A DNA stretch of 64,000 bases from Herbiconiux sp. A18JL235. GTDB taxonomy: Bacteria; Actinomycetota; Actinomycetes; Actinomycetales; Microbacteriaceae. A model generated the notes under the pieces. It was not told the origin of the DNA, made no database searches, and saw nothing but the letters and a program-made list of their open reading frames with translations. Location: contig NZ_CP162511.1 in the NCBI RefSeq assembly GCF_040939305.1, positions 4,130,649-4,194,648 of the forward strand. Direction: 5' to 3'. Of the stretch, positions 32,113 through 36,748 are shown one piece after another (positions within the stretch are counted from its first letter, which is position 1; the number at the start of each line of letters is the position of its first letter). The translations under genes were made by a program, and so were the position numbers.

Positions 32113-33408
32113 ATGACCACCGCCACGCTCTCGCGCCCGCAACTCACCGCCTGGCGCAACGCGATCTTCGTGGTCTTCGCGCTGTCGGGCATCTCGCTCG
32201 CCAGCTGGGTCGCCCGGCTGCCCACCGTGCGCGACAACCTCGGCCTCGACACCGCGCAGGTGGGCATCCTCATCTTCGCGATGTCGGCAGGCTCCGTGAT
32301 CGGCCTCGTGGCCGCGCCGCCCATCATGCTGCGTCTCGGTGCCCGCACGGGCATGGTGGTGGCGCTCTGCCTCGTCGCCCTCGGCTGCGTGCTCATAGGG
32401 CTCGGCACCTCCGTCTTCTTCACCGCCGCGGTCGTGGCGGTGGGCCTCGCCCTGTTCGGCTTCGGCAACGGCGCCGTCGACGTGATGATGAACGTCGAAG
32501 GCGCCGCAGCCGAGCGCGCCATCGGCAAGACGCTCATGCCCCTCATGCACGCCTTCTACAGCTTCGGCACGGTGGCGGGCGCCGGCCTCGGTGCCCTCGC
32601 CTCGCTGTTCGCGGTGCCCGTCGCTGTGCACCTCAGCGTGATCGCGGCGGTCATCGCCGTCGCGGCGCTCGTGGCCATCCGCTTCGTGCCGCGCGGGGCC
32701 GAGGCGTCAGAAGCGTCTGGCGCGACCGAAGCCGACGCAGCGGGCTCGTCCGCCGCCGCAGCACCCCGGGCGGGCTTCCGCGAGCGTCTGCTCGGCAGCC
32801 TCGTCGTGTGGAAAGACCTGCGACTGCTCGCCATCGGCGTGATCATGCTCGGCATGGCCTTCGCCGAGGGCTCGGCAAACGACTGGCTGACGCTTGCCGT
32901 CGTCGACGGCTACGACCAGTCGAACACCACCGGCGCCGTCGTGTTCGGCCTGTTCACCGTGTCGATGACGGCGGGGCGCGTGCTCGGGGGGCCGGTGCTC
33001 GACCGCTTCGGGCGCGTTCCCGTGCTGAGGGTGAGCGCCCTGCTCGGCGCGCTCGGGCTGGCCGTGTTCATCTTCGCGCCCGCCCTCGCGCCGATGGCCC
33101 CCTGGATCGGCTACGCCGGCACCGTGTTCTGGGCCCTCGGCTGCTCGCTCGGCTTCCCGGTCGGCATGTCGGCCGCCGCCGACAACGACGACCCGCGTGT
33201 GTCGGCGGCGCGGGTGAGCGCCGTGGCGATCATCGGGTACGTGGCGTTCCTGGTGGGCCCGCCCGTCATCGGCCTGCTCGGTCACGAGTTCGGCATCCTC
33301 AACGGCCTGCTGCTCGTGCTCGCCCTCGTGGTGCTCGCCGGCCTCGCCTCGCCCGCCGCCCGCGAGCGCCACCCCCGCCCCGCCGTGAAGCCGGCCGCTT
33401 CGGCCTGA
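32113..33408 (+). CDS. MFS transporter (FucP/YbjJ-like)
   Basis: This 431-residue major facilitator protein has twelve predicted helices in two halves joined by a Ala/Ser/Glu-rich loop (residues about 195-220). It begins [24 protein letters not shown], typical of the FucP/YbjJ-like sugar transporter branch. The ATG at 32113 has a good AGGAG ribosome site, unlike its leaderless neighbours, so its transcript has a leader that could contain the LacI operators. The neighbouring LacI suggests transport of a sugar or nucleoside. Confidence 0.82.
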
Positions 33409-33428
33409 GCCGCCGCGCGCATCCGCGT

Positions 33429-33434
33429 TACGCT
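33429..33434 (+). promoter_or_regulatory. Leaderless -10 box of nucS
   Basis: TACGCT lies six bases before the GTG at 33441. Confidence 0.45.
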
Positions 33435-33440
33435 CGTCGG

Positions 33441-34136
33441 GTGCGTCTCGTCATTGCCACCTGTTCCGTCGACTACGCGGGCCGTCTCAGCGCGCACCTG
33501 CCGCTCGCCAAGCGCCTGCTCATGCTGAAGAGCGACGGGAGCCTGCTCGTGCACTCCGACGGCGGCTCCTACAAGCCGCTGAACTGGATGAGCCCGCCCT
33601 GCACCGTCACCGTACTCGAGCCCGACGCCGACCAGGCGGATGCGGGAATCACCGAGCTCTGGAAGGTCACCCAGAAGAAGACCGACGACGTGCTGGTCGT
33701 GTCGATCCACGAGGTGGAGCACGACTCGGCGCACGAGCTCGGCATCGACCCCGGGCTCGTGAAAGACGGCGTCGAGGCGCACCTGCAGAAGCTCCTCGCC
33801 GAGCAGATCGAGCTGCTCGGCGACGGCCACACCCTGGTGCGCCGGGAGTACATGACGGCGATCGGCCCGGTCGACATCCTCGCCCGCGACTCGGCCGGTG
33901 CTGCCGTCGCCGTCGAGATCAAGCGCCGCGGCGACATCGACGGCGTGGAGCAGCTCACCCGCTACCTCGAGCTGATGAACCGCGACCCGCACCTCTCGCC
34001 CGTGCAGGGCGTCTTCGCCGCGCAGGAGATCAAGCCGCAGGCCCGCACCCTCGCTCACGACCGTGGCATCCGCACCCTCGTGCTCGACTACGACGCCATG
34101 CGCGGACTCGACGACGCCGACTCCCGCCTGTTCTGA
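33441..34136 (+). CDS. nucS: Mismatch-specific endonuclease NucS (EndoMS)
   Basis: This 231-residue protein is NucS, the core of the non-canonical mismatch repair of actinomycetes that lack MutS/MutL. The N-terminal DNA-binding domain begins [15 protein letters not shown]. The nuclease domain has the D-x(n)-E-x-K site in GPVDILARD and [22 protein letters not shown]. The C-terminal tail DADSRLF resembles the beta-clamp-binding tail of other NucS proteins; this is an inference from position. The GTG at 33441 has a -10 box six bases upstream. A much longer open frame upstream overlaps the MFS gene and is not real. No mutS or mutL is in the window. Confidence 0.92.
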
Positions 34137-34171
34137 GCGGCGCGCGACCCGTTCGCGCCCCGCGCCCCGGA

Positions 34172-34177
34172 TAGGGT
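34172..34177 (+). promoter_or_regulatory. Leaderless -10 box of the SseB-like gene
   Basis: TAGGGT lies six bases before the GTG at 34184. Confidence 0.45.
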
Positions 34178-34183
34178 GGGCGG

Positions 34184-34585
34184 GTGGCACGTCGCGCTCC
34201 CGCCTTCCCGAAGTCGTACTCGAACCGGCAGCTCCGCAAGGCGCTCGAGACGTTCGCGGCCCTGCCCAACCGCACCACGCTCGACGCCCTGCTCGCTGCG
34301 ATGCGCACCGGAGGCCTCGTCGTCGACATCACCGGAACGACGGATGCTGCCGACCCGCAGCTGCGCACCCTGCTGTCGACCGAGGGTGAGCCGGTGCTTC
34401 CGCTGTTCACCTCGATCGCCGAGCTGAGGCTCGCTGTTCCCGAGGAGGCTCGGGCCGAGGCTCAGGCGATGATCCTGCCCGCGCGCGAAGCGCTCGCGCT
34501 GGTGGAGACTGCCGACTTCGTCGCCGTGCAGTTCGACCCGGGGAGCATCGGGCAGGTCATCAAGCGCGACTACGTCACGGGCTGA
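34184..34585 (+). CDS. SseB-domain protein
   Basis: This 133-residue protein fits the SseB N-terminal domain: LRKALETFAALPNRTTLDALLAAM, then VLPLFTSIAELRLAVPEEARAEAQ and a final VAVQFDPGS. SseB domains are beta-rich modules of unknown function often duplicated next to other genes. The GTG at 34184 has a leaderless -10 box. It follows nucS by 48 bases and ends 53 bases before the inverted-repeat element. Confidence 0.65.
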   Translation: MARRAPAFPKSYSNRQLRKALETFAALPNRTTLDALLAAMRTGGLVVDITGTTDAADPQLRTLLSTEGEPVLPLFTSIAELRLAVPEEARAEAQAMILPAREALALVETADFVAVQFDPGSIGQVIKRDYVTG

Positions 34586-34638
34586 GCGGGGGCGCGCCGC
34601 GCATCCGGAGTCTCTGCGCCGAACGACGGAGCCCCTAG

Positions 34639-34793
34639 GTGTGTCTCTCAACCCGGGGGGCGGCGAGGACGTGCCCGGGTGGTGTGATCGCAAGGCGGAT
34701 GAGGAGTCGATAGCGGCGCTATCGACTCCGAAGACAACGCCGCGAGCGCGCCGCCCGGGTGCGCCGCAGCGCCCGCCGGGTTGAGAGACACAC
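34639..34793. mobile_element. 155-base terminal-inverted-repeat element (MITE-like)
   Basis: GTGTGTCTCTCAACCCGG at the left end (34639-34656) is matched by its exact reverse complement at the right end (34776-34793). Both ends are flanked by CCTAG (34634-34638 and 34794-34798), which looks like a five-base target duplication, although the sequence is itself nearly palindromic. The interior is GC-rich and holds a perfect 12-pair hairpin at 34703-34729. There is no coding frame. The right flank forms the TAG stop of the permease gene on the minus strand. It could be a non-autonomous mobile element, a dispersed repeat or a bidirectional terminator between two convergent genes. Confidence 0.6.
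34703..34729. repeat. Perfect 12-pair hairpin inside the element
   Basis: GGAGTCGATAGC (34703-34714) and GCTATCGACTCC (34718-34729) are separated by a three-base GGC loop. On neither strand does a T tract follow. Confidence 0.7.
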
Positions 34794-34794
34794 C

Positions 34795-35967
34795 CTAGGC
34801 CACGAGAGCGAGCACCACGGTCGCGAGCGGCACGATGACCACGACCGCGATGAGCCCCAGCCCCATGAAGCGCGGCCACGAGATGGTCACCCCGAGCGAC
34901 GTCAGGCGCTGGTGCCAGAGCAGGGTCGCGAGCGAGGCCCACGGGGTGACCAGCGGGCCGAGGTTGGTGCCGATGAGCAGCGCCATGATGCGCGCCGAGC
35001 TGTCGGCGTGCGGCTCGAGCACGAGGTAGGCGGGGAGGTTGTTCAGCACGTTCGCGCTGAGGGCGCCCACCGCCGCGAGGTGCAGCAGGCTGAGCGGGTC
35101 GTCGCCCGAGCCGGTCACCTGGGTCAGAACGGATTCGAGTCCGCGCACCTGAGCGGCTTCGACCAGCACGAACAACCCGAGGGCGATGCCGAGCGCCTGC
35201 CACGGGATGAGCGAGGGCCTGATCGCCGAGCGTCGCCGCACGAGGAACATGCCGAGCAGCAGCACCGCGCCCGCCCCGGCCACCAGCGCGACCTCGATGC
35301 CCGAGACGAGCATCGGCAGCAGCACCGCCACGACGACGGCGCTGAACACGAGCAGCACGCGGTCGTCGACCGGCGTGCGCTCGGGCAGCGTGAACGACCC
35401 GCGGAGGCTGCGGCGGTGCACGAGCGAGAGGATGGCCACGGTCGCCGCCACGCCCACCAGCCCGGGCGCCCACGACACCGCGAGGAAGGAGGCGGGGCTC
35501 TCACCGAGACGGTCGGCGGCGAGCAGGTTGGTGAGGTTCGAGACCGGCAGGAACAGCGACGCCGTGTTGGCGAGCCACACGGTCGCCAGCGCGAAGGGCA
35601 GGGGCGGGATGCCGACGTGCTGCGCCAGAACGACCACCACCGGTGTCACCAGCACGGCGGTGGTGTCGAGCGAGAGGAAGGCGGTGCTCACCACGGCGAG
35701 CGCGATGACGAGCGCCCAGAGCAGCCACACCCGCCCGCGACCCCAGCCGGCGAGGCGTTCGGCGAGCGCCGTGAACACGCCCGCCTCGCTCGCGAGTTCG
35801 GCGACGATCGTGATGCCGACGACGAAGGCGAGCACCGGGGCCACCCGCGCAAGGAGCGCGACGAAGTCGCTCCAGGGCAGGAACCCGGCGGCGACGACGA
35901 GGGCGGCGGCGAGGAGGAGGGCGACGGTGAGGATCGTTCCGATCCTGCGCCCTGCAGCGGCGAGCAT
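34795..35967 (-). CDS. ArsB/NhaD-type ion transporter permease
   Basis: This 390-residue membrane protein has about eleven helices with the family motifs LDTTAVLVTPVVVVLA, LANTASLFLPVSNLTNLL, and NVLNNLPAYLVLEP with GTNLGPLVTPWASLATLLW. This places it in the ion transporter superfamily of ArsB arsenite permeases, NhaD and SLC13-like proteins. No arsR or arsC is near, so arsenite export is not shown. The ATG at 35967 is chosen over a much longer frame that overlaps the HAD gene; TAGACT lies eight bases upstream. The stop codon falls within the flank of the inverted-repeat element. Confidence 0.8.
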   Translation of the reverse strand: MLAAAGRRIGTILTVALLLAAALVVAAGFLPWSDFVALLARVAPVLAFVVGITIVAELASEAGVFTALAERLAGWGRGRVWLLWALVIALAVVSTAFLSLDTTAVLVTPVVVVLAQHVGIPPLPFALATVWLANTASLFLPVSNLTNLLAADRLGESPASFLAVSWAPGLVGVAATVAILSLVHRRSLRGSFTLPERTPVDDRVLLVFSAVVVAVLLPMLVSGIEVALVAGAGAVLLLGMFLVRRRSAIRPSLIPWQALGIALGLFVLVEAAQVRGLESVLTQVTGSGDDPLSLLHLAAVGALSANVLNNLPAYLVLEPHADSSARIMALLIGTNLGPLVTPWASLATLLWHQRLTSLGVTISWPRFMGLGLIAVVVIVPLATVVLALVA

Positions 35968-36063
35968 GATCGGCGAGTCTATTCCGCTTCGGGTCGCCGC
36001 CGGTGACGGTCGGGGACACCTCCCGGCGCCCGCTCGGTTGGGGGGGCCTGAGCGCCCTCCACC

Positions 36064-36069
36064 TAGGAT
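36064..36069 (+). promoter_or_regulatory. Leaderless -10 box of the HAD hydrolase gene
   Basis: TAGGAT lies seven bases before the GTG at 36077. An in-frame ATG at 36068 overlaps the box and so would not be transcribed. Confidence 0.45.
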
Positions 36070-36076
36070 GTCTCGG

Positions 36077-36748
36077 GTGACTCGACAGACTCCCACCAAA
36101 CCCTGGTCGTGCATCCTGTTCGACCTCGACGGCACCATCACCGATTCCGCCCCCGGCATCATCGGCCGTCTGTCGCGCACGCTCGAAGCCCTCGGCCGGC
36201 CGGTGCCGCTGCCCGCCGAGCTGGTCGCCTTCGTCGGCCCGCCCATCCTCGACGGGTTCCGCGACGTCGCCGACATGAACCCGCAGGAGGCCGCCGAGGC
36301 GCTTCAGGTGTACCGCGGGCTCGCGGCGACCGACGGCCCTCAGGGCGACGCCACCGTCTACCCCGGCATGCTCGGGCTGGTGAAGGCCATCCACGAGGCC
36401 GGTGTGCCGCTCGCGCTGGCCACCTCGAAGTCGGAGGTGCAGGCGCAGCGCGTGCTGGAGCACCTCGGCATCGCCGACTGCTTCGACGTCGTCTGCGGCT
36501 CGTCGGAAGACGAGACCAGGAGCGCCAAGAAGGACGTGGTCGAAGAGGCGTTGCGCCGCCTGAGGGAGCAGGGGGTCGACCTGTCGAACCTCGTCATGGT
36601 GGGCGACCGCGAGCACGACGTGGAGGGCGCCGGGCATCACGGGGTTCCCGTGGTCATGGTCGAGTGGGGCTACGGCTCGCCCGCCGAGGCGGTGGGTGCC
36701 ATCGCGGTGGTGCACTCGGTCGAGCAATTGCGCGACAAGCTGCTCTGA
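36077..36748 (+). CDS. HAD-family phosphatase, Gph-like
   Basis: This 223-residue HAD hydrolase has motif I FDLDGTITDS (residues about 13-22), motif II in LATSKSEVQ, motif III Lys in SAKKDVVEEAL and motif IV MVGDREHDVEGA. The cap domain is of the small helical type as in phosphoglycolate phosphatase. It may hydrolyse phosphoglycolate, pyrophosphate or a sugar phosphate. The GTG at 36077 is chosen from the -10 position. It is followed by an unrecognised gene after 18 bases, probably in the same transcript. Confidence 0.82.
   Translation: MTRQTPTKPWSCILFDLDGTITDSAPGIIGRLSRTLEALGRPVPLPAELVAFVGPPILDGFRDVADMNPQEAAEALQVYRGLAATDGPQGDATVYPGMLGLVKAIHEAGVPLALATSKSEVQAQRVLEHLGIADCFDVVCGSSEDETRSAKKDVVEEALRRLREQGVDLSNLVMVGDREHDVEGAGHHGVPVVMVEWGYGSPAEAVGAIAVVHSVEQLRDKLL

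Follow-up and report, generated by a model that had tools for sequence, protein, structure and literature searches.

A CTAG-flanked miniature element between two convergent Herbiconiux genes and the conserved hairpin module in its interior

Between two convergent genes of Herbiconiux sp. A18JL235 lies a short palindrome without any gene of its own, which raises the question of whether it is a transposon, a structured repeat or part of the termination signals of its neighbours. A sequence-only reading of the window, by which we mean the whole analysed stretch of 64,000 nucleotides, had left these three possibilities side by side and had proposed that an insertion set the end of the adjacent permease. 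The layout that it described is confirmed (Table 1): the exact inverted ends of 18 bases, which become 19 if the next pair (34638/34794) is included, the central hairpin with 12 perfect pairs (34703-34714 with 34718-34729), the position between an SseB-domain gene and a permease gene, and the flank that supplies the TAG stop of the latter. CCTAG is indeed present on both sides (34634-34638 and 34794-34798), but the first C is not part of the duplication, which is CTAG. The two ends are unequal, the left one (CTAGGTGTG) being one G shorter than the right one (CTAGGGTGTG). The plus strand of the element folds at -130.7 kcal/mol versus a mean of -72.4 for shuffled sequences (z -13.1), and the minus strand at -110.6 kcal/mol (z -10.8 versus shuffles). 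A scan of 34400-35000 gave no promoter-like site and no T-tailed terminator-like site, a tRNA scan of 33000-36500 gave none, and a Rfam 15 covariance search returned no match for 34000-35400 at E up to 1 and none for eight additional loci with the E-value limit set to 0.1.

Table 1. Coordinates of the element, its parts and its neighbours in the window
Feature	Positions	Strand	Remark
SseB N-terminal-domain gene, convergent neighbour	34184..34585	+	Pfam match
CTAG, left copy of the target duplication, 4 bases	34635..34638		deduced from three empty sites of the element's relatives
Left terminal inverted repeat, IS5-type end GTGTGTCTCTCAACCCGG	34639..34656	+	outer bases like the ends of the 981-base IS of G003
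Conserved hairpin module, model R1, 102.1 bits	34670..34763	+	also present without the outer ends, as at G000:C1:3291976 and in further genera
Internal loops, 5' strand, GCAAGGCGGATGAGGA	34690..34705	+	columns of alignment A1 mostly invariant or nearly so
Terminal hairpin, 12 pairs, loop GGC	34703..34729	+	sequence varies among copies, pairing mostly kept
Internal loops, 3' strand, GAAGACAACGCCGC	34730..34743	+	columns of alignment A1 mostly invariant or nearly so
Right terminal inverted repeat	34776..34793	-	exact match to the left end
CTAG, right copy of the target duplication	34795..34798		reverse complement is the TAG stop of the permease
Permease gene, insertion target	34795..36276	-	CitMHS / ArsB Pfam match; longest ORF, putative start

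The element is a MITE with IS5-type ends, and it is close to certain that it belongs to a mobile family. Searches of the genome and its relatives, as had been recommended, did find other copies: the sister species G006 has two full-length relatives elsewhere (L006 and L021, 89 and 84% identical to the window element), and the window's own genome (G000) contains a relative shortened to 65 bases (L030), one isolated end (L003) and an end-less copy of the interior (L022). The readings as a non-autonomous transposable element and as a dispersed structured repeat, formerly offered as alternatives, therefore both hold, the former also by virtue of the empty sites of these relatives. All 15 other genomes of the genus lack the element at the permease site, and so it is neither a solitary sequence nor one fixed at the same place in all relatives. 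When joined flanks were used as the query, the sites of L006 and L021 were recovered in G000 and that of L030 in G006, all of them element-free. Aligned, the three empty sites read CTAG, CTAG and TTAG, one copy each, where the occupied sites have CTAG on both sides, and because of this CTAG is identified as a 4-base target duplication. The expected variation of the flank among copies was seen hardly at all (TTAG at one empty site), since CTAG is itself the insertion target. An empty site with a single flank copy was seen for the three relatives, but not for the window site, which in G006 has a native TAG in the same codon preceded by G (GTAG rather than CTAG); we therefore infer the duplication at the window site from the family.

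Several partial or misleading matches accompany these copies. L030 (G000:C1:3774731-3774797) is a 65-base derivative with IS5-type ends and without the hairpin core, the corresponding site being empty in G006; either it moved coreless or the core was lost afterwards. The lone right end with CTAG (G000:C1:2598048-2598073; L003, L032) has no partner end in sight nearby. Partial matches to about positions 93-150 of the query in other genomes are weak, look like G+C-rich chance and were not used. In 13 of the 27 loci listed (L034-L041, L043, L044 and L046-L048, from 13 genomes of the genus), the matches resembling CTAGGGCGTGTCTC belong to one conserved stretch distinct from the element, which carries this sequence or a near-match; it misleads end searches and was not counted among the copies.

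A candidate for the mover is found within the genus. G003 carries a 981-base IS bounded by CTAGGGCGTGTCTC, a piece of whose transposase is 54% identical over 105 amino acids to a Streptomyces plasmid protein annotated as an IS5 family transposase; the transposase is not a single open frame, which may reflect decay or a programmed frameshift. The ends of the MITE and of this IS have about 15 outer bases in common and differ at the inner end. We propose that the 164-base MITE depends for its movement on an IS5-family transposase acting in trans, which would insert at CTAG and duplicate it. For E. coli IS5, PMC11677980 gives a 4-base target duplication with the consensus C(A/T)A(G/A), and the family of the window element resembles IS5-family ISs and their MITEs in this 4-base duplication at CTAG-like sites. 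The short inverted ends are a further likeness, as seen in the IS of the genus with end CTAGGGCGTGTCTC. On a plasmid of Streptomyces sp. NBC_00723 (L257:1499-2520), an IS5-family element stands beside another CTAG-bounded sequence with one CTAG common to both, an arrangement as if one element had entered the target duplication of the other.

The stop codon of the permease, by contrast with the original proposal, is not a product of the insertion. Its tail was located in 9 of 15 relatives, the other 6 giving no anchor for it, and in all nine, which are free of the element, the last codon of the protein is unchanged; consequently neither a C-terminus set by the insertion nor a longer permease in element-free strains can be upheld. 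The stop in these nine is TAG in two (G006, G007) and TGA in seven. At two of the three empty sites, the CTAG or TTAG is the neighbouring gene's own TAG stop, as judged from ORFs, and thus predates the insertion. CTAG occurs 20 times in the window versus 176 expected from base content. Among annotated plasmid MITEs, the CTAG of the element coincides with an annotated TAG stop in 5 of 8 cases and other CTAGs in 2 of 17 (nine loci; Fisher p 0.017); L262, fetched as background, was omitted from this count, its annotation holding just 3 genes. In one of the five, CTAG provides the stop for both convergent neighbours, and 6 of the 8 MITEs lie between convergent genes. CTAG is thus a rare sequence, and it reads TAG on both strands; many of the insertions that are retained lie on TAG stops, and the duplication preserves the stop of the gene.

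The interior of the element is a copy of a conserved hairpin module some 95-105 bases in length, whose internal loops hardly vary and which MITEs with diverse IS5-type ends have in common; the module also occurs end-less behind genes. A query of 103 interior bases found matches without the outer ends in G000, G006 and G005; those of G000 and G006 (L022, L028) adjoin the same gene end, and G006 has a tandem of three copies. Tandem copies about 80-120 bases apart are seen at G006:C1:1197546-1197849 (L029) and in G404, G144, G178 and G420. A family-wide DNA search, with two candidates scored per matching genome, extended the module to further genera, 12 of the 398 genomes searched matching with an E-value of 1e-6 or better. 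The model of the module, R1, gave lower bounds, candidates per genome being scored in part: at least 5 of 150 family genomes, at least 13 of 396 genomes of the phylum, among which four weak single matches lie outside the class, and all 15 genomes of g60, a different genus within the family, with 3 to 19 matches each and at least 164 in all. An exact pattern found the module in Nocardioides sp. Root1257 and in 9 of 396 phylum genomes, its reversed control in none; the match in G532 looks like chance. A g60 copy used as the query against plasmids matched nine records, every one from Streptomyces, and phage records gave no match to the module. This recurrence in distant actinomycetes points to a family of structured elements that has yet to be described; no paper on the hairpin module is among the matches listed in a search that covered the text, as opposed to the figures, of open-licence PMC articles. 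From 139 model matches, five were dropped (four opposite-strand shadows and one weak second match in L196), and the remaining 134 correspond to 111 unique copies that underlie the by-group strand counts and the stop and folding counts. Among 15 of the 17 matches on G380:C1, which are those listed, the 9 below 1.44 Mb are all on the minus strand and the 6 above 2.57 Mb all on the plus strand, a split that may reflect a bias in replication direction or merely in gene strand.

What is constant among these copies is the core and not the ends. Of 113 copies tested, 28 combine matching ends with a CTAG on one side or both; two of these, g60 rows L119 and L120, were judged to have passed the end test by chance and were removed, which leaves 26 module-bearing MITEs. 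They comprise 17 of the 23 copies from Streptomyces plasmids and from g104, a genus with large genomes that is presumably Streptomyces, 4 of the 8 from g110, three from the window genus and one each from G383 and L208; about 13 end types are represented, with CTAG on both sides in 15 of the 26. Left and right ends agree within a copy (identity 0.91), while right ends compared between copies do not (0.43) and the 24 core loop bases do (0.89). Among the 85 copies that failed the end test, 58 come from g60. In this the family differs from IS5-family ISs and MITEs, as a conserved structured module is common to about 13 end sequences and is missing from both transposase-bearing copies examined, the IS of G003 and the plasmid IS5, in which a model search found no hairpin module. 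The module of L256 is broken by inserts and was missed by the model, but could be recognised by eye: on this plasmid of Streptomyces sp. NBC_00536 (L256:2501-2725), a MITE with the core carries one extra insert in each arm of the outer stem, at facing positions.

The copies without ends have a setting of their own. In g60, with gene calls based on codon-position G+C rather than annotation, 40 of 60 copies have a coding stop between -6 and +15 bases from their right end, versus 1 of 60 for the mirrored left end; the 60 are the copies examined out of at least 164 matches in the genus. One gene end with a C-terminus like EDIIEELVGEVDDATRR carries the module in eight genomes, in which the stems differ and yet are mostly paired. 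Read from their C-terminal residues, the host genes would include homologues of corC-type genes, guaA, greA and nrdH. The left neighbour is often, not invariably, convergent. No upstream promoter excess was seen in 57 flanks and no T tract in the 60 copies, in which T accounts for 15% of the 12 bases that follow the stem on each side. Stand-alone and tandem copies of this kind fit the alternative that the module is itself mobile and enters the loops of existing palindromes, be they terminator hairpins behind stops or the interiors of MITEs, as does the pairing of the flanks regardless of their sequence, with ends that differ between copies around constant loops. The fixed orientation to the gene in g60 (40 versus 1) nevertheless demands more than the targeting of loops, and we regard such a module as unlikely.

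That the hairpin module is a real structured family is close to certain. In an alignment (A1) of 30 copies that were collected independently of the model, 96% of the pair cells are standard pairs although the stems vary, both sides change in 28 of the 36 pairs, and the pair at columns 31/68 occurs in all four Watson-Crick forms. The covariation score is 0.563 versus 0.168 for shuffled alignments, none of 500 shuffles reached any of the five measures, and slid controls lie far below the real alignment. A second set of 25 other copies, mostly from other genera and aligned by fitting to the model, hence biased towards it, scores 0.640 versus 0.190 (0 of 500 shuffles). The core is 54 bases long in most of the 30 copies and 52-57 in the others. 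A1 has 26 invariant columns, mostly within or beside the loops, in which the bases GCAAGGCGGA..GA and GA.GACAACGC hardly vary and look like tandem G-A pairs.

The fold is protected on one strand, antisense to the abutting gene. Mismatches in the outer stem of the 30 model-independent copies are G-T in 84 cases versus A-C in 6, and the direction is the same in all five groups: 140 versus 10 in g60, 91 versus 5 in Streptomyces and g104, 31 versus 0 in the window genus, 21 versus 5 in g110 and 33 versus 9 in the others. The inner pairs of g60 have a weak G-T excess (14 versus 9 A-C). RNA folding favours the strand that tolerates G-T in 109 of 111 copies (mean -61.9 versus -49.0). G-T is the better-tolerated mismatch in DNA too, and by analogy with REP hairpins or integron attC the working form could be single-stranded DNA bound by a nuclease or recombinase, the folded strand being opposite to the coding strand of the abutting gene; the conserved bases, however, lie in the inner loops and not at the ends, and we give this form a small chance. 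A further alternative dispenses with selection on the fold. In quasi-palindrome correction, template switching copies one arm of an imperfect palindrome onto the other, which would explain why ends and stems differ across copies and agree inside each. Such correction should ignore the strand, yet the mismatches are skewed as described, and it does not foresee the invariant A1 columns in and beside the loops; we therefore consider it quite improbable. That the element is a plain bidirectional terminator of this gene pair that never moved, as its position between convergent genes and the stability of both strands might suggest, can be dismissed, given the other copies with single CTAG or TTAG at their empty sites, the 15 relatives without it and the lack of a T-tailed site in 34400-35000.

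We consider the locus as a whole to be probably explained by a MITE moved by an IS5-family transposase and carrying a conserved 3'-end structural module. The role of that module is a more tentative matter: our best guess from the sequences, which we hold with somewhat less than even confidence, is a 3'-end structure acting on incoming transcription. As an RNA made from the strand that is antisense to the abutting gene, this structure would allow an element to land after a stop codon without harm or even with benefit, for instance by halting antisense or convergent transcription that enters the gene. In one genus the module has been retained behind genes. The main puzzle is an antisense fold with neither promoter excess nor T tract. 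These features count against our explanation, as do the left neighbours that are not always convergent, the two ISs without the module, an IS in G003 with about 15 end bases in common, the weak inner G-T excess of g60, the coreless L030 with its IS ends and the GTAG of G006. It is possible, but in our view doubtful, that a structured RNA module, conserved in the Actinomycetota and missing from Rfam, has outlived changes of transposon, being brought onto TAG stops by IS5-type elements with diverse ends, has been domesticated behind housekeeping genes and guards their 3' ends in antisense.

Known systems offer partial parallels. REP and BIME sequences are short palindromic repeats behind genes, REPs being linked to a tetranucleotide and to RAYT; the module is likewise short, palindromic and found behind genes, but it differs in its conserved internal loops, its variable stems and, in many copies, its IS5-type ends. 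With intrinsic terminators it has in common a stable hairpin at the stop codon, and it differs from them in the missing T tract, the conserved loops and the nearly fixed length of its core.

A MITE alone would be ordinary; a fold that stays constant despite changing ends, and that is kept end-less behind genes, is not. If the MITE family behaves as we propose, it would be a clear case of transposons that hit stop codons and leave the protein unchanged. If the module acts as RNA, it would constitute a family outside Rfam 15 that spans several actinomycete families, and perhaps one in which the cargo of transposons has been converted into the 3' ends of genes.
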